Shown here: in pieces, positions 3,354 to 47,500 of the stretch | Layout: each line of letters opens with the position of its first letter | How positions within the stretch are numbered: position 1 is the first letter of the stretch | DNA from: Aquisphaera giovannonii | GTDB lineage: Bacteria > Planctomycetota > Planctomycetia > Isosphaerales > Isosphaeraceae | Direction: 5' to 3' | Assembly (NCBI RefSeq): GCF_008087625.1 | Contig: NZ_CP042997.1 | Coordinates: 4,526,001 to 4,590,000 of the forward strand | Length of the DNA stretch: 64,000 bases | Translations under genes and position numbers: made by a program | The notes under the pieces: generated by a model | Database searches by the model: none | Seen by the model: only the letters and a program-made list of their open reading frames with translations | What the model was told of the DNA's origin: nothing

Positions 3354-4982
3354 TCAGGGGAGGATCCGGGTCCCCACGGCCGTATTCAGGGCGAGCATGC
3401 TGCGGCGGTGGCGGATGAGCACGTCCCGGTACGCCCGGATCGACTCGTTGTAGTCGCGCTGGGCGTTGAGATAGGTGACCAGCCCCTCCTCGCCGGAGGC
3501 GTAGAGCCGGTGCTTGTCATCCCTGACTCGCCTCGCCCGCGTCAGGATGGCACGCTCGAAGCGATCGACGGCGGCCCGCGACGAGGCGTATTCCAGGGCG
3601 GCCCCCTCGACCTCCGCGACGACCTGACTCTCCAGGCCCGAGACCTCGAGCTGCGTCTGGTGGACGTTGCGCTCGGCCCGGCGGATGTTGCCCTGGTTGC
3701 GATTGAAGAGGGGGACGGTGGCGAAGACGCCCGCGCCCCACGACGTCGCGCCGCTCGCCCCCGGCGTGTCGTTGTTCGCGTTGTATCCGTAGGGCGTGTA
3801 GAGCGCGAAGACGTCCGGGAACCTCTCGCGGCGCTGCACGTCGACGTTCGCCAGGGCCGACCTCACCCCGAGTCGGTTGGCGACGAGGTCCGGCCGCTGG
3901 CAGAGCGCGATCCGGACCAGTTCCTCGGCGGGGGGAGGGGGCGGGGCGAGGTCCCGGACCGCACCCCTCAGCTCGATGGCATCGGCCCGGGCGGGGGGGA
4001 TATTGAGGAGGACGGCGAGCCTCTTCTTGGCCTGGCGATAGCGCGTGACCGCCTCCTCGTGGGCGACCGCCGCCGTCTCCTGCTGGATCTCGGCCGTGTC
4101 GAGGTCCGACGCCGGGACGATCTGCCTCGTCACCTGCTCCCGGATGCTCGCCAGCAGGGCCGCGTAGCCGTTGAGGCTGGTGCCCAGGTACTGCATCGTC
4201 GTCCGGGCGCTCAGGGCGTCGAGCCAGGCGACGTGCAGCCTCTCCAGCTCCAGCCGCACGGCGTCCTGGTATTGCGCCTGGAGCACGTTCCTGGCCGTCT
4301 GGGCGAGGTGGATCCGGGCCCGGATCTTGCCGTTGACGTCGAACGGCTGCACGAAGGTCACGCCGTAGCTGTTCGACCCAGGCCGTCGCGGGGAATACTG
4401 TCCATAAGGCACGCTGTCGGCGCTCGCGAAGACGAGCGGATTCCCCCAGAGCCCGGCGGTGAGGACATCGGCCTCGGCCTTGGGCAGCTCCTGGAATTTG
4501 ACCATCAGCTGGGGGTTGGAGCGGATGACGGAGGCCATGGCCTGGTCCAGGGTCAGGCCGCCCTCCGGGCCCTCGTCCTCGACGGCGGGGAGCTCGAGCG
4601 GCCCGTACAGCGGGATCGCGCCGGCCGACCGGCCCGGCAGGGCCGGGGGCAGGATCCCGGGGCGACGGTCGGTGACGGTCCCCGCCCGGTCGGGCCTCGA
4701 CGCCGCGGAGAGCACGTCAACCGTCCCCGGGAGGGAGACCCGGCCGCCGAGGCGCGGCTCATCGGCCCCGGCGACCCGGGCGAACGGCCTCTCGACGGCG
4801 CCGTGCACCGGGCCGAGCGACGTGCTGTCTCGGGCGCGTTGCTTGGCCCGTTCGCCCGCCGAGATCGCGATGATGTCGTCCGCGAGCGTCGCGGCGCCCT
4901 GCCCGCGAGCCGGCCGGCCGCAGAGGCCGGACGCCGCCGCGAGCACGAGCCCGCACAGGCCGAGTCGAGAGTGCAGCGTCAT
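3354..4982 (-). CDS. TolC-family outer-membrane efflux protein
   Basis: This is an outer-membrane channel of the CusC/CzcC/TolC family, the exit duct of the tripartite metal pump encoded just upstream. From the ATG at 4982 (542 residues) it has a signal peptide (MTLHSRLGLCGLVLAAASGLCG), a variable region of about 130 residues, then two OEP repeats beginning at GGLTLDQAMASVIRSNPQL. A second repeat region contains LYTPYGYNANNDTP and PLFNRNQGNIRRAE, typical of CzcC. An AGGAGGG ribosome site lies 5 nt before 4982; in-frame ATGs at 5006 and 5024 are possible but leave the signal sequence internal. The longer form starts 3 bp after the pump gene, so the two are co-transcribed. Confidence 0.93.
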   Translation of the reverse strand: MTLHSRLGLCGLVLAAASGLCGRPARGQGAATLADDIIAISAGERAKQRARDSTSLGPVHGAVERPFARVAGADEPRLGGRVSLPGTVDVLSAASRPDRAGTVTDRRPGILPPALPGRSAGAIPLYGPLELPAVEDEGPEGGLTLDQAMASVIRSNPQLMVKFQELPKAEADVLTAGLWGNPLVFASADSVPYGQYSPRRPGSNSYGVTFVQPFDVNGKIRARIHLAQTARNVLQAQYQDAVRLELERLHVAWLDALSARTTMQYLGTSLNGYAALLASIREQVTRQIVPASDLDTAEIQQETAAVAHEEAVTRYRQAKKRLAVLLNIPPARADAIELRGAVRDLAPPPPPAEELVRIALCQRPDLVANRLGVRSALANVDVQRRERFPDVFALYTPYGYNANNDTPGASGATSWGAGVFATVPLFNRNQGNIRRAERNVHQTQLEVSGLESQVVAEVEGAALEYASSRAAVDRFERAILTRARRVRDDKHRLYASGEEGLVTYLNAQRDYNESIRAYRDVLIRHRRSMLALNTAVGTRILP

Positions 4983-38122: not shown

Positions 38123-40900
38123 ATGAGCATGAGCAGCGACGAGGTGCCGGCGGGCGATCCCCTGCCACCCACCGAGATCGGGCCGCTCATCGACCTGCGC
38201 GACCTCGTACGCCGGCCGTGGGGCGAGGGCGAGCCGCTACGGAAGGAGGGCCCCGCCGCCGGGCCGCCCGGCGATCGCGCGGGGGGCTCGCCTCCGCCGG
38301 GCGGCGCGCACGCGCGGGCCCCGGCCCAGGGTCTCGAGGGCCGCGAGGCGGTGCCGCCCGACCCCCTCGACGAGCCCACCGACCCCGGCCCCGACCCCGG
38401 CCCGTGGCCGGCGCGCGAGGCCCTGGGGTCCACGGTCCCGGCCCCGGAACTCGGCGACGACGAGACGGAATGGATGGGCGGGCTCGGGCCCGGCGGGGCC
38501 GGCGCGGGGGGCGGGGCGGGGCCGGCGGGGCGGCGATACAGCCTCATCCGCCAGCACGCCGTCGGCGGATTCGGCGAGATCTGGCTGGCCCGCGACCACG
38601 CGCTGGCCCGCTTCGTCGCCCTCAAGAGGCTGCAGCCGGCGAGGTCGGAGAATCACGCCGTCCGGGCCCGGTTCCTCCGCGAGGCTTGGATCACCGGCCA
38701 GCTCCAGCACCCGGGGATCGTGCCGGTCTTCGAGCTCGCGGTCGACCCGGCCGACGGGCGGGCCTACTACACGATGCGGTTCATCGGCGGCCGCACCCTG
38801 ACCGACGCGGCCCACGAGTACCACAGGCGGCGGGAGCAGAAGCAGGCGAGCCGCATCGAGCTGCGGGAATTGCTGGGGGCCTTCGTCGCCGTCTGCCAGG
38901 TCATGGCCTACGCGCACAGCCGCGGCGTCATCCATCGGGACCTGAAGGGCCGGAACGTCGTGCTCGGCGACTTCGGCGAGGTCATGGTCCTGGACTGGGG
39001 GACGGCCAAGGTTCTCCGCGGCCGCGGCGCGGCGGACGGGGGCAGGCCCGGGGCGGAGGCCCGCGAGTCCCCGGGCGAGGCCGCGGCGGCCGACCCGCCG
39101 GTGGAGGACATCCCGGGCGACGCCACGGGCGACGGCTCGGTGATCGGCACGCCCAGCTACATGTCGCCGGAGCAGGCGAGGGGCCGCATCGACCTCGTGG
39201 ACGAGCGGAGCGACGTCTACGGCCTGGGGGCGATCCTCCACGAGGTCCTCACCGGCGAGCCGCCCTTCCGGGGCCCCGCGGTGGAGGTCCTCCGGCGCGT
39301 GGCGGACGAGACGCCGGCGCCCCCCCGCCAGCGCTGCGGCGACGTGCCGCAGGCCCTGGACGCCGTCTGCGTCAAGTGCCTCGCCCGCGACCCGGCGGAC
39401 CGCTACGCCTCCGCCGCCGAGGTCGCGGCCGAGATCCGGCGGTACCTCTCCGACGAGCCGGTCGAGGCGTACCCCGAGCCGTGGACCGCCCGGTCGCGGC
39501 GATGGGTGGGCCGCCATCGCACGCTCGCCTCCGTCGCGCTGGCGACGCTCCTGGTGGCGACCGCCTGCCTGTCGGTCGCCACGGCGATGCTGAAGGTCGC
39601 CGGGGACCGCGCCGAGGCGAACCTCGGCCTGGCGCTCCACGCCGTGAACCGGTTCTTCAGCAAGGTCGGCGACGCGCCGCAGCTCAAGGCCCGCGGCCTG
39701 GAGAGGTACCGGCAGGAGCTCCTGGCCGAGGCGAGGAGCTTCTACGAGCAGCTCCCGCCGGAGGACGGGGCGGGCCCGGCCGTGCTGGCCGAGCGCGGCT
39801 GGAGCGACCTCCGCCTGGCGAAGCTCACCGACGAGCTCGGCGACTATCCCGGGGCCATCCGCCTGGCGACCCGCGCCCGGTCCACCTTCGAACGCCTGGC
39901 CCGGCTCGACGCGGGCGACGCGCGCCACCGCGTGGGGATCGCCCGGGCGCTGGACTCGCTCGGCGGCCACCTGCACAACGACCAGCGGCCGGGCGAGGCG
40001 AGGGCGGTCCTCGAGGAGGCGGTCGCGCGCTGGGGGGCGCTGGTCCGCGAGCAGCCCCGCTCCCTCGAGCTCCGCCGGGGCCACGTCGCCTGCATGAACA
40101 AGCTGGGCCGCCTGCTCTGCCTGGCGGTGCACGACCCGCCCGCCGAGCGTGCCGTCCTGGACGCCTGCCTGGACGCCTGCGCGTCGCTCGTCCACGACGC
40201 GGGCGCGGCCGTCGAGGACCTGGACCAGCAGGCGGAGGCAGACCTCCTGCTTGGCTACTCGTGGGCGGCGACCGACCTCGCCCGCGCCGAGGCGCACTTC
40301 GCCGCGACCCTGGCCATCCGCGAGCGGCTCGCCGAGGAGCACGCCGACCGCCTCGAGCTCCTCTCGAACCTCGTGGACAGCTGCGTCCTGATCGCCACGA
40401 CGTACTCCAACGCCAGGGCCGCCGGGCTGGTCGTCCCCGAGCTCTACGGGCGGGTGCGGCGGATCGGGGCGAGGCTCGCGGCCGAGCATCCGGACGTGCC
40501 CCTCTTCGCGGAGAACCTCTGCCTCATCGAGATCATCGAGTCGCACCGCCTGGCCCGCGCCGGCGAGGCCGAGGGGGCCGCCGCGGCCGCCGAGGCGGCG
40601 CTCGCCCGGGCCCCCCGGTCGGCCCTGGCGTCGCTCTACGCCGCCTGCTGCCTCTCCGTCGCCTCCGAGGCCGTCCGCCGCTCCCCGGGCAAGTCGGCAG
40701 AGGAGCGGGATCGGGCGGCCGAGCGGTATCAGGCCCGGGCCGTCGCGCTGCTCCGGTCGGCGAGCGAGGCGGGGTTGTTCCTCCAGCCCCACAAGCGCGC
40801 CGGCCTCAAGTCCGACGACCCCGACCTCGCCCCGCTCCGGGGGAGGGACGACTTCAAGCGGCTGGTCGCCGAGGTCGAGGCCGCCGCCCCCCCCGGCTGA
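38123..40900 (+). CDS. Ser/Thr protein kinase with DWG motif, one TM segment and TPR-like sensor part
   Basis: The 925-residue protein has a disordered Pro/Gly-rich N-terminus (to about residue 138), then a Hanks-type kinase domain. Its glycine loop is HAVGGFGEIWLARD, the ATP lysine lies in FVALKRLQPA, the catalytic loop is HRDLKGRNVV (D273) and the metal loop is LDWG (D291-W-G) in place of DFG. GTPSYMSPEQARGR and DVYGLGAILHEVLTGEPPF complete it. A transmembrane helix (TLASVALATLLVATACLSVATAML) leads to about 400 residues of helical TPR-like repeats (GDYPGAIRLATRARSTFERLA, RPGEARAVLEEAVARWGALV). DWG is common in planctomycete kinases. GGGAGG precedes the ATG. A hairpin follows its stop, separating it from the next operon. 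Confidence 0.92.
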   Translation: MSMSSDEVPAGDPLPPTEIGPLIDLRDLVRRPWGEGEPLRKEGPAAGPPGDRAGGSPPPGGAHARAPAQGLEGREAVPPDPLDEPTDPGPDPGPWPAREALGSTVPAPELGDDETEWMGGLGPGGAGAGGGAGPAGRRYSLIRQHAVGGFGEIWLARDHALARFVALKRLQPARSENHAVRARFLREAWITGQLQHPGIVPVFELAVDPADGRAYYTMRFIGGRTLTDAAHEYHRRREQKQASRIELRELLGAFVAVCQVMAYAHSRGVIHRDLKGRNVVLGDFGEVMVLDWGTAKVLRGRGAADGGRPGAEARESPGEAAAADPPVEDIPGDATGDGSVIGTPSYMSPEQARGRIDLVDERSDVYGLGAILHEVLTGEPPFRGPAVEVLRRVADETPAPPRQRCGDVPQALDAVCVKCLARDPADRYASAAEVAAEIRRYLSDEPVEAYPEPWTARSRRWVGRHRTLASVALATLLVATACLSVATAMLKVAGDRAEANLGLALHAVNRFFSKVGDAPQLKARGLERYRQELLAEARSFYEQLPPEDGAGPAVLAERGWSDLRLAKLTDELGDYPGAIRLATRARSTFERLARLDAGDARHRVGIARALDSLGGHLHNDQRPGEARAVLEEAVARWGALVREQPRSLELRRGHVACMNKLGRLLCLAVHDPPAERAVLDACLDACASLVHDAGAAVEDLDQQAEADLLLGYSWAATDLARAEAHFAATLAIRERLAEEHADRLELLSNLVDSCVLIATTYSNARAAGLVVPELYGRVRRIGARLAAEHPDVPLFAENLCLIEIIESHRLARAGEAEGAAAAAEAALARAPRSALASLYAACCLSVASEAVRRSPGKSAEERDRAAERYQARAVALLRSASEAGLFLQPHKRAGLKSDDPDLAPLRGRDDFKRLVAEVEAAAPPG

Positions 40901-40907
40901 TGCGACG

Positions 40908-40930
40908 GGGCCCTCGGCGTGCGAGGGCCC
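40908..40930 (+). terminator. Hairpin after the kinase gene
   Basis: A perfect 9-bp stem with a 5-nt loop (GGGCCCTCG-gcgtg-CGAGGGCCC) starts 7 bp after the kinase stop. No U-tract follows, so termination is uncertain, but the position between the kinase and the RiPP-like operon fits a transcript boundary. Confidence 0.4.
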
Positions 40931-41018
40931 GACGGCGGAGGACCCGGCAGGCCATCCCATCCCTCGAGGAACGACGCCCCGGACGCCACGAACCGTCCCC
41001 CGAACCGAGGAGACGCGA

Positions 41019-41558
41019 ATGAGCTCGAAGATCCTGAACTTCCTGGCCTCCCTGGCCACCGACCCGGACCTGATGTCCGAGTATCTCGAGGATCCCCGGC
41101 GGGCGATGACCCGCGGCGGGCTCGACGCGAAGGAGATCGAGCTCATGCAGGGCGGGGACGCCCGGGCGATCGCGGCCGCCGCGTGCGCCCCCGGGGACGA
41201 TCCCCCCCGGGCCGCCGCGGCCGCCCCCGCGGCGGAGGCCGTCGCCCCGGCCGAGATGCCCGCCGGGGCCCCGGCGCCCGCGACCATGATCGTCTACGGT
41301 CCGGTCTATTACTTCTCGTACCCGGCCGCCGCCCAGGCCCCCTCGGCCGGCATCCAGCCCGGCGCCTCCCGCGCCGCCTCGCTCATCACGCCGCCGATGA
41401 AGACCTTCACCCACCACCCGGTGCTGGAGCCCTTCACACCCTGGGTCCCGGTCTTCCTGCCGATCACCCCGTTCACGCCCGTCGAGCGCGGGGGGGAGGC
41501 GGCACCGGCGAGGCCCCCCCGGCCCCCCGAGCCGCGCACCGAGGGGCCGACGCGCTGA
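41019..41558 (+). CDS. Borosin-like RiPP precursor: binding domain plus hydrophobic core region
   Basis: This 179-residue protein has two unlike parts. Residues 1-55 (MSSKILNFLASLATDPDLM, then SEYLEDPRRAMTRGGLDAKEIELMQGGD) are a small LigA-like helical domain. It closely follows the pattern of the borosin-binding domain of precursors such as Shewanella SonA (hydrophobic start, D-x-x-LM-x-x-Y, DP-x-x-x-M, GL, IxxxMxGD). An Ala/Pro linker (56-88) follows, then the hydrophobic, aromatic stretch MIVYGPVYYFSYP (90-102) and a Pro-rich stretch containing PFTPWVPVFLPITPFTPV (138-155). These are candidate substrates for backbone N-methylation. The methyltransferase gene begins 89 bp downstream. ACCGAGGAGACGCGA gives a good ribosome site. 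The C-terminus is far longer than SonA's, so core boundaries are unknown. Confidence 0.72.
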   Translation: MSSKILNFLASLATDPDLMSEYLEDPRRAMTRGGLDAKEIELMQGGDARAIAAAACAPGDDPPRAAAAAPAAEAVAPAEMPAGAPAPATMIVYGPVYYFSYPAAAQAPSAGIQPGASRAASLITPPMKTFTHHPVLEPFTPWVPVFLPITPFTPVERGGEAAPARPPRPPEPRTEGPTR

Positions 41559-41647
41559 GCGGAGGCGCGATCGGCCGCAGCGAGAATCGGCGGGGGCGAG
41601 GCATCATCGGCCGGGCCGCGAGGCCCGGCCAGGCGAGAGGCGGCATC

Positions 41648-42553
41648 ATGACGCTCAGCGCAGGCCGGGGCGGCGGGGCCCTCGTGGCGGTCGGCACCGG
41701 GATCCGGATCGTCGGGCAGTTGACGACCGAGGCCATCGCCTGGATGCGACGCGCCGACCGGCTGCTCTACGTGGTCAACGACGCCGTGGCGGAGGCGACG
41801 ATCCGCGGCCTGAATCCCGCCGCGGAATCGCTCTTCGGCCTGTACGCCGAGGGGTCGCCGCGGCACCGGACCTACCTCGCCATGGTGGGGCGGATCCTCG
41901 ACTCCGTCCGGGCCGGGGGCGTGACCTGTGCGGTCACCTACGGCCATCCCGGCGTCTTCGCCTGGCCGATCCACGAGGCGATCCGCCTCGCCCGCGCCGA
42001 GGGCTATCCGGCCACGATGCTGCCGGCGGTATCCGCCGAGGACTGCCTGTTCGCCGACCTCGGGGTCGACCCGGCGCGGCACGGCTGCCAGTCGTACGAG
42101 GCCACCGACTTCCTGCTCCACCGGCGGTCCGTCGACGTCGCGTCCGACGTGATCCTTTGGCAGGTCGGGGCCGTGGGCGACCCGAACTACCACGCCGGCG
42201 ACTACGACCTGTCGCTCCTGCCTCTGCTGTCCGAGCGGCTCGCTCGGATCTATCCCGAGGGCCACCTCGGCTACGTCTACGAGGCGGCGGTCCACCCGGG
42301 CGCCGATCCCTACATCAGCCCGGTCCCCCTCGGCCTGCTGCATCAGGCCCGGCTGTCGTCGTCCTCCACGCTGTACATCCCGGCCGCCCGCGCGCCGGAG
42401 GTCGACGCGGTCGTCCGCGATCGGCTCGAGGCCCTGGCCTCAGGGCCCTTCCGCGAGCCGCCACCGGCGGCTGGGCCCCGCGAACCGAGTGACGACGCCC
42501 CGTCCGCGACGCCCGGGGGACGGGCCCCCGATCGGTCTTCCCGCCAATTGTGA
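41648..42553 (+). CDS. Borosin-type peptide backbone alpha-N-methyltransferase (TP-methylase fold)
   Basis: This 301-residue SAM-dependent methyltransferase has the tetrapyrrole-methylase fold but resembles the borosin enzymes SonM/OphMA rather than cobalamin or sirohaem enzymes. Seen: ALVAVGTGIRIVGQLT (SAM loop), Y66/R72/Y76 in LYAEGSPRHRTYLAM (the Tyr/Arg set implicated in amide N-methylation in OphMA, by recalled alignment), VTYGHPGVFAWPIHEAI, PAVSAEDCLFADLGVDP, QSYEATDFLL and ILWQVGAVGD. Unlike fungal OphMA the substrate is not fused; it would be the protein encoded just upstream. It should methylate main-chain amides of that precursor. GAGAGG lies upstream of the ATG. Its stop is followed within 18 bp by the next start. 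A generic TP-methylase role is the alternative. Confidence 0.78.
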   Translation: MTLSAGRGGGALVAVGTGIRIVGQLTTEAIAWMRRADRLLYVVNDAVAEATIRGLNPAAESLFGLYAEGSPRHRTYLAMVGRILDSVRAGGVTCAVTYGHPGVFAWPIHEAIRLARAEGYPATMLPAVSAEDCLFADLGVDPARHGCQSYEATDFLLHRRSVDVASDVILWQVGAVGDPNYHAGDYDLSLLPLLSERLARIYPEGHLGYVYEAAVHPGADPYISPVPLGLLHQARLSSSSTLYIPAARAPEVDAVVRDRLEALASGPFREPPPAAGPREPSDDAPSATPGGRAPDRSSRQL

Positions 42554-42570
42554 ATCCGGAGGCCTTCCCG

Positions 42571-44466
42571 ATGAGCGTGCTCGGCTATCCGCGCATCCAC
42601 TTCCGAGGTCGATGCTCGGTCAACGCGGCGACCGGCGACAACGACGACGTCCGGATCGGCATCAATCCGGACGCCGTCGCGCTCGAGCCGGCGCTCGCCG
42701 CCATGAGCGACCGGGCCGCCATGTCCTGGATGATGGAAGGCGTACGGGCCATCCAGCCGGAATGCAACGAGGTCCGCTGGTACCTCAAGGGGGGCTGGAA
42801 CTACTTCGGGGACCTCACGTTCAAGCTCCTCGACGCGCGGGTCAACGCGGCGGTCGGGCCGGACGGCGTGGCCTCGTCGGCCGACCCGATCGTCGGCGAG
42901 GACGTCGCGATCCTCGGCTCGCCCTCGGAGGACGGGCACATCGGCCCCACGGCGAAGGTCTGCGACGCGGACCCCACGGGCTCCTGGCTGACGCAGCTCT
43001 TCCTGGGCCATCTGTCCGTGGGGGGGGAGCACCTGGGGATCTCCGCGACCCACGACGCCCGGGCCTTCGCGCGCTGGGTCGGCTGGAGGAACGCGGTCCG
43101 GTACAAGGGCGAGCAGAATTTCACCGGCGGCGGCGCGACCTGGCAGTTCGCCCTCCCCCGCGAGTGCCTCCGATTCCGGGGCACGGACCGGTCCCCGGCG
43201 TTGGAGGCCCTGCGCGACGCGGCGGAAGGCGCGCGGGGGATCGTCGTCCAGTTCTCCCTCCTGCTGCCGCAGCCCGAGATCACCGACCTGGAGCTGATCG
43301 CCCTGTTCCAGGCGGGCGATTACGTCCCCAACCCGGTCCTCAGCCTGCTGGTCGGGACGATCGGCGTCTGGCAGGACGGCGAGCTCGCCACGGCCCCGGA
43401 CGGGCGGCTCCTCCTGCCGCCGATCAAGTACACCGGGCCGGCGACCGCGCGCGTCCAGCCGTACCGGCCGGTCGTCTCGCTCAACCTCGCCTGCACGTTC
43501 TTCGAGGACGGCTACGACCTGCCGCCGAAGAAGGCGGATTACGGGCCCGTGTGGCTCGGCTACGTCCCGGAAGGCGGGGGCGACCCGGTGCGGATCAGCG
43601 AGCCGATCGCGTACGACTACCCGACGTACGAGGCGACCGGCGGCATCCTCGACGTCCCCTACGACCCCCGGGTCGTCTCGCGCGACCAGCTCGACCGCGG
43701 CTCGCTCGTGCTCCTCTCGATGCTGGGCGCGCAGGGCGATCGCCCCGTCCCGCTGCTGGCCGAGGTGCCCGACGGCCTGGTCGTGGACACCGACGACCGC
43801 GGGCTCTACCTCGACGTGGACGGCCGCGGCCACATCCACGTCCTGGTCCGCGAGCGGGGCCTCCCGCCCCGGTCGGACGTGCCGGTCTGGATCTGGGAAT
43901 ACCAGAACTACCTGGTCCCGGCGGGCCCGCTGGAGCGTGCCGGCGGCGTCCCGAAGCTCGTCGACCAGGGCTCGGGCCTCGAGCCCCGCGTCCGCTTCCC
44001 GTCCGTCGTCCTCTTCCCGCGGGGCCGCGCCGAGCCCCTCCCCGTCCCCGTGGAGGCGATCCGCCCCGGCTCCGTCGCGATGGCCCTGACGCTCGACGGC
44101 CGCCCGCTCCCGGCCGGCTATCCCTGGGACACCGCCGCCTACGCCGGCGCGCGGGTGCTCCCCGAGGACGACTTCAGCAAATACCCCCTTCGCAGGCGGA
44201 CGAGCTGGAAGTTCATGTACAAGCACGTCTGGCGCTACTACCGCCTCATCTTCCCCGCGATGTCCCGGATCATCCCCATGGACTCGAAGGAGGACATGGA
44301 GGCGGCCGCGCGCCATATCCTCGCGCGGACAGACCCCGCGATCTGGCATTCGACCCTCTACATGCCCCCGTCGCGCGACCTCTCGCGCGGCAAGCGGGAC
44401 CTGATCGTGGAGTGGGTTGAGGAGGTCGAGCGACGACGTCGCGGGGAGCAGGCGGGGGACGACTGA
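42571..44466 (+). CDS. Stand-alone VioB N-terminal-half-like protein
   Basis: This 631-residue cytoplasmic protein opens MSVLGYPRIHFRGRCSVNAATGDNDD, strikingly like the N-terminus of VioB (FPRIHFRGWARVNAPTAN). Further matching blocks include GIVVQFSLLLPQPE, GVWQDGELATAPDGRLLLP, VSLNLACTF and, near the end, FMYKHVWRYYRLIFPAMS followed by STLYMPPSRDLSRGKRDLI (VioB: YYMPSTREL). VioB continues with a ferritin-like iminophenylpyruvate dimer synthase half, which is absent here, so the catalytic role may differ or be scaffolding. GGAGG lies 9 nt before the ATG at 42571; a GTG at 42550 overlapping the methyltransferase stop is possible. The spacing implies co-transcription with the borosin-like pair. 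Comparison is from memory. Confidence 0.65.
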   Translation: MSVLGYPRIHFRGRCSVNAATGDNDDVRIGINPDAVALEPALAAMSDRAAMSWMMEGVRAIQPECNEVRWYLKGGWNYFGDLTFKLLDARVNAAVGPDGVASSADPIVGEDVAILGSPSEDGHIGPTAKVCDADPTGSWLTQLFLGHLSVGGEHLGISATHDARAFARWVGWRNAVRYKGEQNFTGGGATWQFALPRECLRFRGTDRSPALEALRDAAEGARGIVVQFSLLLPQPEITDLELIALFQAGDYVPNPVLSLLVGTIGVWQDGELATAPDGRLLLPPIKYTGPATARVQPYRPVVSLNLACTFFEDGYDLPPKKADYGPVWLGYVPEGGGDPVRISEPIAYDYPTYEATGGILDVPYDPRVVSRDQLDRGSLVLLSMLGAQGDRPVPLLAEVPDGLVVDTDDRGLYLDVDGRGHIHVLVRERGLPPRSDVPVWIWEYQNYLVPAGPLERAGGVPKLVDQGSGLEPRVRFPSVVLFPRGRAEPLPVPVEAIRPGSVAMALTLDGRPLPAGYPWDTAAYAGARVLPEDDFSKYPLRRRTSWKFMYKHVWRYYRLIFPAMSRIIPMDSKEDMEAAARHILARTDPAIWHSTLYMPPSRDLSRGKRDLIVEWVEEVERRRRGEQAGDD

Positions 44467-44505
44467 CGGCCGCGAGGCCGGGGCCCGTCCGCCCTCGGCG
44501 TCGCT

Positions 44506-47500
44506 TCACCCGGCCGGCCCGGCCCCGGCCCGCGCGCCCGGCATGGCCGCCGGCATGGCCGGCGCGGGCCGGCTCGCGCGCAACGGGTCGGGGTAGGGGC
44601 CGATCTCCTCGACCGGGATCGGGCGGAAGCCGACGGACCGGGTGAGCGCCTGGGACGGACTCAGGCGAAAATCCCCCCGGGCCGCGTCCGCGAAGCTGGG
44701 GTCGGACGCCCCGAGCTCGAGGTCCTCCAGGCGGTCCAGGTGCTCGAGGTCCTCCGCCGCCAGGGGGCCGCAGCGATACGCGACGTTCCGCCACGCGTGG
44801 TTGATGCCCGGCGGCTTCAGCATCGCGGCCATCTCCGGGTAGCGCCCGAGGTAGAGCGGCGTGAGGAAGAAGCCGTCCGGGCGATGCCCCTCCTCGAGCG
44901 ACTTCCAGACGCCGTTGCTGCCGTACCAGCCGCCGCTGATCCCCAGCTTGCAATCCACGAACAGGTTGTTGTCGATCACGTTATCCCGGCCGCCGTTCAT
45001 CTGGACGCCGCCGAAGTGGCCGCTGGCGCTGCGGACGAAGACGTTGCCGTAGATCAGGACGCCGCTGATCGCGTCGTCCAGCCGGATGGCGGCCTGCCCG
45101 TGGACGATCGCGCCCGGGGCCGCCTTCCCGCAGTCGACGAAGCGGTTGTGCCGGAAGACGACGCCCCGGTAGGTCGGGTTGCCGTAGAGCTCCATCGCCC
45201 CCTGGTCGTCCGACTCCCGCACCGCGGCGTACACGTCGTTGTACTCGATGACGTGGTCGTTCCCCTCGATCCGCATGACGCTGCTGGGCGCGTCGTACAT
45301 CCGGTTGTGCGCGACGCGGTTGCCCACGCCCTCGAGCTGGATGGCCGGGGTGTAGGTGCGGTCGATCCGGCCGAAGTCGTGGATGTCGCAGTTCTCCACG
45401 AGGTGCCGGCCCGGCGTCAGCGTCGCCCGGTCGCCGCCGATCACCTCGGTGGCGCGGCGGCCGATGGTGGCGACCTCGCAGCCGAACAGGACGTCGGCCT
45501 CGCCGCCGTTCACGACGACCCCGTTGCCCGCCATCCGGCGGACGGTGCAGCCCGCCAGGACGCAGCGGCGGCACGACTCCAGCCGCAGGCCGTCCGACCG
45601 GGAGAGGTCGAACGCCAGGCCCTCGAGCCTCACGTCGCAGACGCGGTCCATGGCCACCATCGGCGTCGAGGCCACGCCGATCTCCGCCGTCGCCTTCGCG
45701 ATGTCGCCCCCGGGCGGATAGAGGTAGAGCACGCCGGCCTTGCGGTCGAGGTACCACTCGCCCGGGGCGTCGAGCTCCTCCAGGAGGTTGAACGCATAGT
45801 ACTGGATGCCCTGCTCGGTGCTCATGCCGCCGCCGTACTCGTACGCCTCGTCGCAGGCGATCGTGCGGGCGGCGGGGTCGATGCGGGAGACCCGGATGGT
45901 GGCGTCGGCCCAGAGGTAGTGGAAGTAGCCGAAGAGCCAGGGCTCCTCGGCGCGGGCCCATCGCGCGGGGCGGTCGCCGAGGTACTCGAAGACCGACGGC
46001 TTGCCCTCCCTGCGCGAGCCCGGCTGGACGAGCTTCCCGATGCCGACGAAGCCGGCATTGGGCCAGCGGGCGGGCGTCATCGGCCGGCCGCCCACGAAGA
46101 CCTCGAGCGTCGGCGGCGACGGCGGCTGGCCGAAGCCGCGGACGGCGAGCCTGCCGAGGTCACGGATCCCGAGCGCCTTCAGGTCGCACCGGACGACCTT
46201 CCCGCGGGCTTCCTCGGGCAGCCGCGAGAGGGCATCGGCGTCGGCCACCGGCGCCCATCCGGCGAGCCTCCGGCCGCCGTAGAAGACGGCCTTGCCGGGC
46301 TCCTCGGCGCGGTAGACGACCGGGCCGTCGGGCGTGCCGGAGTCCTCCGCGGAGAGGCTGAAGGTCCCGGCGACGGGATACTCGCCCGGCAGGACGCGGA
46401 CGGCGATCGCGCCCCGGGTGCCCCTCGCCCGGAGGCCGCGGACGAGGTCGCGGGCGCGGGCCAGGCTCGCCGCGGGCGACGACCGCGAACCCTCGGCCGC
46501 GTCGTCGCCCGCCGGCGAGACGAACACCTCGGCCGCGAAGCGGTCGATGCGGGGCGGCGGGGTCCGGGTCGCGGCCGGGTCGCGGGGCGGGAGCCCCTCC
46601 GCGACGCGTCCGAGCTCGCGGACTCGCTCGCGGGCCTCCATCCGGTGGACCTCGGGATACGCGGCCGTCGCCGCGATCGCGACATACTCCCGCGCCGCCT
46701 CCGCGGGCTTGCGCTCGGCGGCCCAGCTCTGGGCGACGCGGAGGTGGGCGTAGCTGCGGATCGACGGCGGCAGGTCGCTCGCCGCGGCCAGCGCCGAGCA
46801 GGCCTTCCGCACGGCCCCGAGGTCCCCCTTCGCCCACGACGCCCTCGCGGCGGCCAGCGCGTCGAGGGCGGCCTCCCGGTGCTCGGCGGCGAGCTCGGCC
46901 GGCGACCGGACGACGCCGAAGGTCCGCTCCAGCTCCCGGAATTCGGCCCGGACCTCCGCCCGCGAGAGGGCGCGGCGGTGGACGCGGACCTCGTCCATCA
47001 GGCCCCAGTAGTTGTGCCAGCCGCTCCCGAGCGTCAGCTCGCCGCCCTTCGCAAAATCGCCATCGAAGTTGGAGGGGAGCGGGGCCTCGGACACGGCGCC
47101 GCCGTTGACGTACAACGCAACCCGGCGGGCGCGGCGATCGCAGACGACGGCGACGTGGGCCCAGCGGCCGACCGCCAGCATGCCCGGACCCGTCCCGCCG
47201 CCCGCGGCGACGATCCGGCCGTGCTCGTCGCGGTAGCAGGTGTAGGTGTCGAGCTTGCCGTCCGCCATGACGTCGATGCCGACGTAGGCGTCGGGATACG
47301 TGCCGGACGAGAAGATCCGCCGCTGGTTCTGCCTGTCCTCGATCGACAAGCTCGTCGGCTTCAGCCAGGCGCTGAAGGTCCACGACCCCTTGCCAAATCG
47401 CAGGGCCGGCGGGACCTCGACGCGGGCGAAGGTGCCCGGCTGGCCGTCGAACGAGAGGGCCTTGCCCGACGGCGACGCGGACCAGCCGCCGCCGACCGCC

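Follow-up and report, generated by a model that had tools for sequence, protein, structure and literature searches.

The window analysed here is a stretch of 64,000 nucleotides from the genome of Aquisphaera giovannonii (10.5 Mb, 3 contigs). It contains a pair of adjacent genes that raises the question of whether a planctomycete makes a peptide methylated on its backbone and, if so, which neighbouring genes take part in this. N-methylation of the backbone gives peptides stability and membrane permeability, and borosin enzymes are in demand as tools for obtaining such peptides; to our knowledge, the natural roles of bacterial borosins are mostly unknown. A sequence-only reading of this DNA had proposed a split borosin layout, in which enzyme and substrate are separate proteins. 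This layout was supported by sequence comparison and by the predicted fold, and the locus is very likely a split borosin pathway, with the enzyme–substrate pair in the middle of a conserved cassette that also includes a kinase gene and a VioB-like gene. Genes of the planctomycete-type families PSCyt1, PSD1 and DUF1501 flank the locus.

The second gene of the pair (41648–42553, plus strand) encodes a protein of 301 aa that was classified as a borosin peptide alpha-N-methyltransferase with the TP-methylase fold. As had been claimed, it is a separate gene located on the same strand as the precursor gene and exactly 89 bp downstream of it, and its product contains the motifs YGHPGVF, SAEDCLFADLGVDP and QSYEATDF together with residues Y66, R72 and Y76. 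A Pfam search attributed the protein to TP_methylase (E = 2.7e-14). The comparison with the PDB gave 25 distinct sequences at E ≤ 0.01, every one of them a borosin enzyme, the best match per enzyme being dbOphM (1.9e-56), OphMA (8e-52), SonM (3.3e-48) and MroMA (3.5e-40). Residues Y58, R67, Y71 and Y93 of SonM correspond to Y66, R72, Y76 and Y98 of the window enzyme, and the first three of these were invariant among six aligned planctomycete enzymes. Eight of the ten SonM positions examined are kept (Y58, R67, Y71, Y93, F99, E146, W166 and Q167), and R68 and E173 are replaced by H and D. According to the available part of the SonM study (PMC8429565), Y58, Y71 and R67 stabilise the deprotonated amide, Y93 and F99 participate in cofactor binding, and W166, Q167 and E146 form the clamp lock.

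Tetrapyrrole methylases belong to the same Pfam superfamily, TP_methylase, and weak NCBIfam matches of the enzyme to YabN (3.2e-6) and CobI/CbiL (0.22) were obtained, both far under the cut-off; on these grounds, the protein could be a cobalamin or sirohaem methylase with no relation to the adjacent small ORF. However, the PDB matches at E ≤ 0.01 were exclusively borosin enzymes, a borosin-binding domain is encoded next door, and a uroporphyrin-type methylase (identity read from its sequence) is encoded at another place in the same genome. This methylase formed a very long outgroup branch in a quick tree that comprised 82 rows and was constructed without the fragments L030, L048 and L078. The window enzyme, two enzymes of A. 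insulae (genome G001) and one of G028, a genome of another genus, formed a single group among the borosin rows (SH-aLRT 98). SonM and dbOphM were located in a neighbouring group, and the copy from genome G021 (row L025) was outside the four. The enzyme was placed among the borosins and apart from the uroporphyrin-type methylase of the genome; grouping with cobalamin or sirohaem methylases would have spoken against the sequence-only reading. The tetrapyrrole methylase identity was rejected on the NCBIfam, PDB and tree results, and its probability is negligible.

The closest relative at the locus is that of A. insulae JC669, with an enzyme identity of 74%. Among 45 genomes of the family, the enzyme was found in four genomes at five places. 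It was detected in 3 of 392 genomes of an even phylum draw (at most six first-look candidates scored per genome) and in 6 of 397 genomes of the class (at most five per genome), the latter set overlapping the phylum draw.

The first gene of the pair (41019–41558, plus strand) encodes the putative borosin precursor of 179 aa, and a Shine–Dalgarno-like sequence GAGGAG (41007–41012, plus strand) lies six bases 5' of its ATG. No Pfam family was found in the protein at E ≤ 1. The top NCBIfam match was the unrelated IniB N-terminal domain (IniB_NTERM; E = 1.8e-4, 21 bits against a cut-off of 40). The borosin-binding domain (BBD) was revealed by profiles. Alignment A5 was composed of the window precursor and sequences from 25 of 43 BBD-positive related loci; near-duplicates, the masked L030 and sequences with weaker or doubtful starts were dropped, and L025 and L078 were represented by the BBD part alone. 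A leave-out profile, for which the two Aquisphaera precursors were removed from the 26 rows of A5 and the other 24 kept, retrieved the window precursor as its sole match among 807 window ORFs at E ≤ 10 (E = 7.1e-18). The precursor is 53% identical over the alignment to the orthologue adjoining the A. insulae enzyme.

The sequence-only reading had described a small helical N-terminal domain, and modeling with AlphaFold2 predicted five helices there (residues 3–14, 16–24, 26–32, 37–45 and 48–56; block pLDDT 85–98), so that the BBD occupies residues 3–56 (41025–41186, plus strand). Beyond residue 56, the model had low confidence and contained neither helix nor strand. With this predicted fold as the query, Foldseek ranks 1–20 were all SonA chains from SonM complexes; the predicted BBD superposed on SonA with an rmsd of 1.0–1.3 Å in 18 of these 20 top matches and of 3.3–3.4 Å in the other two. 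The best Foldseek E-value was 0.036 and none reached 0.001, which we attribute to the small size of the domain. In the PDB, the A5 profile, which does not include SonA, found both SonA (E = 4.5e-12) and the clasp of OphMA-type enzymes (E = 1e-5). The precursor as a single query matched SonA weakly (E = 0.12), and all seven matches at E ≤ 1 were SonA chains. Some of these chains carry the label LigA-domain protein, and a Pfam LigA match was found in 10 of the 26 members of A5, the window precursor not being among them. The likeness of the pair to SonM and SonA, which had been suggested from the letters of the sequence, was found for both proteins. Judging by the model, the BBD should be a leader that docks on the methyltransferase.

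The surroundings of related enzymes in several phyla were searched for a BBD with a profile from five family members (E ≤ 0.1). Of 78 loci, which represent the best 80 of at least 546 confirmed relatives, 43 contained a BBD ORF close to the enzyme; no match at this threshold was found in the remaining 35, some of which are short contigs. The BBD was located upstream of the enzyme in 23 loci, downstream in 16 and in the same ORF in four. A methyltransferase with the BBD fused at its N-terminal end, as in "class 2" borosins, was observed in L012:12373-13377 (= L025), L078:9770-10477 and L054:6064-7338; the L012/L025 and L078 fusions have no obvious core, and L078 is cut by the contig end. Identical methyltransferase and precursor sequences were found in L023 and L024 under Chloroflexota and Acidobacteriota MAGs, which is probably a binning error. 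In the planctomycete genome G116 (L013:10687-12121), a very divergent borosin-like methyltransferase (30% identical) lies beside a protein with a weak BBD match (E = 1e-4), possibly an outlying branch.

The part of the precursor that would be methylated was sought C-terminal to the BBD, where the hydrophobic and aromatic region noticed in the sequence-only reading is indeed present. Identity to the A. insulae orthologue was 70% in the BBD (residues 1–54), 33% in the linker, 71% in residues 88–101, 50% in the spacer (102–123), 55% in residues 124–158 and 45% in the tail. The hydrophobic segment at residues 88–101, ATMIVYGPVYYFSY (41280–41321, plus strand), includes the stretch TMIVYGPVY, all nine residues of which are identical in the orthologue, next to the linker at 33%. 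For this segment, dN was 0.17 and dS was 1.05, values calculated over only 14 codons. These data make residues 88–101 the likeliest core, with limits that are approximate. Another segment rich in proline and aromatic residues (124–158; 41388–41492, plus strand) may tentatively be regarded as a second core or a follower, its identity to the orthologue being little above that of the spacer.

Tandem repeats were found in the core region of the sister precursors, namely 87 bp × 3.7 at the second A. insulae locus and 60 bp × 2.7 in G028; the window precursor contains only short low-complexity repeats. Another multi-copy core design was observed in the split-borosin precursors of Microvirga (L026:5608-6252 and L027:9223-9957), which have many repeats of the "QQMPAGAVAPQVxPW" type.

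The repeats bear on the fate of the methylated product. The full-length N-methylated precursor could be the functional form, with no trimming to a small natural product. The tail is long, flexible and rich in proline and alanine, no cleavage motif was recognised in the precursor, and a Pfam scan revealed no peptidase among 14 neighbouring proteins (22.9 to 57.6 kb) and no protease was found in the cassette. On the other hand, the tandem repeats of the sister precursors resemble multi-copy cores, and the cleavage could be done by a protease whose gene lies in another part of the genome. An untrimmed product appears unlikely. Similarly, no exporter could be assigned among the same 14 proteins or in the cassette; the sole transporter among the scanned neighbours is a sugar/MFS gene on the other strand (48.6–50.1 kb). 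The search for promoters and terminators at 40880–44620 gave none and is uninformative at the local G+C content.

The gene pair would very probably yield a backbone-methylated peptide, a borosin, given the homology and the models described above. In the proposed mechanism, the precursor would bind through its N-terminal five-helix BBD to the separately encoded TP-methylase-fold enzyme in dimeric form. With S-adenosylmethionine as the methyl donor, the enzyme would then methylate backbone amide nitrogens in the C-terminal part of the precursor, which is hydrophobic and flexible; the 88–101 segment is the most likely site.

Two further genes adjoin the pair, and neither the kinase gene as a conserved neighbour nor the downstream VioB-like gene had been mentioned in the sequence-only reading. 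The gene at 38123–40900 (plus strand), which ends 118 bp 5' of the precursor, encodes a Ser/Thr protein kinase of 925 aa (Pfam Pkinase 1.5e-28; HRDLK at residue 271, DWG at 291). A single membrane helix was predicted at residues 468–486, followed by the protein's own C-terminal region of 446 aa (480–925), and hydropathy analysis gave one hydrophobic helix between the kinase domain and the C-terminal region in all four copies from the cassettes. This predicted topology is that of a receptor-like kinase and suggests a role in sensing or regulation.

The gene downstream of the enzyme (42571–44466, plus strand) starts 17 bp past the enzyme end, with a Shine–Dalgarno-like GGAGG at 42558–42562 (plus strand), and encodes a protein of 631 aa similar to the N-terminal part of VioB. 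Its residues 1–310 were aligned with positions 1–315 of the 1003 of the NCBIfam VioB model TIGR04492 (6.5e-29; 100 bits, far under the 1250-bit cut-off). The homologues adjoining the pair in the three other cassettes are 49–81% identical. AlphaFold2 modeling from a 3-row alignment gave a pLDDT of 36. VioB is the iminophenyl-pyruvate dimer synthase of violacein synthesis and has this N-terminal region in common with the window protein. Its ferritin-like half, which we take to be part of VioB in keeping with the split VioB-like pairs of genomes G016 and G018, is missing from the window protein, so violacein-type chemistry is unlikely. No match to the ferritin-like domain (PF12902) was found by Pfam in this protein or in the genomes of the window (G000) and G028, and on this basis a VioB-type dimer chemistry with a ferritin-like partner acting in trans was rejected for the window genome; G001 contains one match, on another contig. 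Among eight loci of other planctomycetes with distant VioB-like homologues, a ferritin-like gene adjoins in three (G016, G018 and G619). A VioB-like protein split into N-terminal and ferritin-like genes was observed in three other planctomycete genomes (L100:4758-8274, L101:203-3665 and L117:66-3384). The relationship to VioB weakly suggests modification of the tyrosine-rich core.

The kinase, precursor, enzyme and VioB-like genes were found together at four loci in three genomes, namely in the window, twice in A. insulae and in G028. The A. insulae cassettes (L009:4141-12840 and L009:15634 to L010:2242) form a near-tandem pair with a spacing of about 9 kb, and therefore the number of independent cases is lower than four; the window genome has one cassette. 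The VioB-like gene adjoins the enzyme at four of its five places in the family. At the fifth, in G021, BBD and enzyme form one fused protein, and the contig ends just downstream. In two of the four cassettes, a Kelch-like gene of secreted type (read from the sequence; no Pfam match was found in it) is located between the enzyme and the VioB-like gene (L009:9548-10984 and L011:9692-11062). It is not at the window locus and has distant relatives in nine other genomes of the family, including that of the window (38% identity). In view of its presence in only half of the cassettes and of these relatives elsewhere, it was left out of the core cassette.

The common occurrence of the four genes could also be due to chance and to a short time of divergence, the borosin pair being real and the other two genes being only neighbours. 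Kinases are frequent in the window genome (7 in the 400 kb sampled), the synteny between the window and A. insulae runs beyond the cassette to a beta-helix gene, and three planctomycete borosin genomes or loci (G021, G483 and G550) gave no VioB-like match. Against this, G028, which belongs to another genus, retains all four genes with the kinase gene inverted and located downstream, so the link has survived rearrangement. In addition, a search of 45 family genomes (with only 38 of the first-look candidates scored in 14 of them) gave four matches to the C-terminal region of the kinase (residues 480–925), itself included, at E ≤ 1e-20, all beside borosin loci. In these 45 genomes and in the 397-genome class draw (at most three candidates scored per genome), every close relative of the VioB-like protein (E of 1.9e-180 or better) that was found lay at a borosin locus. 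Chance neighbourhood is thus considered improbable, and the kinase and the VioB-like protein are probably dedicated partners of the borosin pair, the former in regulation or sensing and the latter in a further modification or binding step. A link with kinases beyond the four cassettes is not claimed. In G550, the gene that immediately follows the enzyme encodes a WD40 kinase, and in G483 a TPR kinase is encoded about 3 kb away; both were set aside because kinases are frequent and the C-terminal regions of these two do not match that of the window kinase.

A bolder view is that the cassette is a self-contained signalling unit, in which a protease-resistant N-methylated peptide would be sensed by its own receptor kinase through the C-terminal region across the membrane helix, and the VioB-like protein would be a new type of borosin tailoring enzyme. 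We regard this as a speculative idea with a slim chance of being correct, slimmer than that of either chance neighbourhood or an untrimmed product.

Another gene combination was observed in the planctomycete G483 (L110:4499-8412 = L036, WGMU01000058.1). A short BBD precursor (4499–4708; profile E = 5.9e-8) is followed there by overlapping genes for YcaO, TfuA and a borosin methyltransferase, and the locus is possibly a hybrid of thioamidation and N-methylation. In the 78 related loci (the best 80 of at least 546 relatives), the TfuA had no other match at E ≤ 1e-4 and the YcaO had one weak match, in L057.

Surveys of bacterial borosins have reportedly been made by Imani, Cho and Lee; they lie beyond the literature searched and may therefore already list predicted members from planctomycetes. 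In agreement with the sequence-only reading, which knew of no characterised planctomycete member, no planctomycete borosin or backbone N-methylation system was found in the literature searched, where the parts of PMC9259500 and PMC12566907 available to us describe none. This literature likewise yielded no report of borosins with VioB, TfuA or a serine/threonine kinase. The cassette is therefore new as far as the search extends. Split borosins themselves are already known and, according to the accessible parts of PMC11285071 and PMC11395268, widespread in bacteria. The planctomycete pair adds a type of substrate, namely long precursors that are multi-copy in the sister loci, and a conserved kinase with a VioB-related partner would link bacterial borosins to a receptor and to a possible new tailoring reaction.

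A comparison with known systems indicated that the layout of the gene pair, in which one protein carries the BBD and the putative core and a second one is the methyltransferase, is exactly that of class 3 borosins as defined in the available text of PMC11395268. The fungal OphMA and dbOphMA differ in that enzyme and core form one protein and not two, although dbOphM was the best PDB match of the window enzyme and the BBD profile finds the OphMA clasp. Another close system is SonM/SonA of Shewanella oneidensis (type IV), in which, as far as the consulted part of PMC8429565 describes it, the enzyme and the precursor are also separate, the leader is a five-helix BBD, the catalytic Tyr/Arg/Tyr set is the same and a hydrophobic segment follows the BBD. 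The window enzyme and SonM are identical at 99 of 251 aligned residues. The precursor of the window is longer (179 aa against about 70 aa for SonA), and the window system differs from SonM/SonA in its long Ala/Pro linker, its two candidate core segments and its kinase and VioB-like partners.
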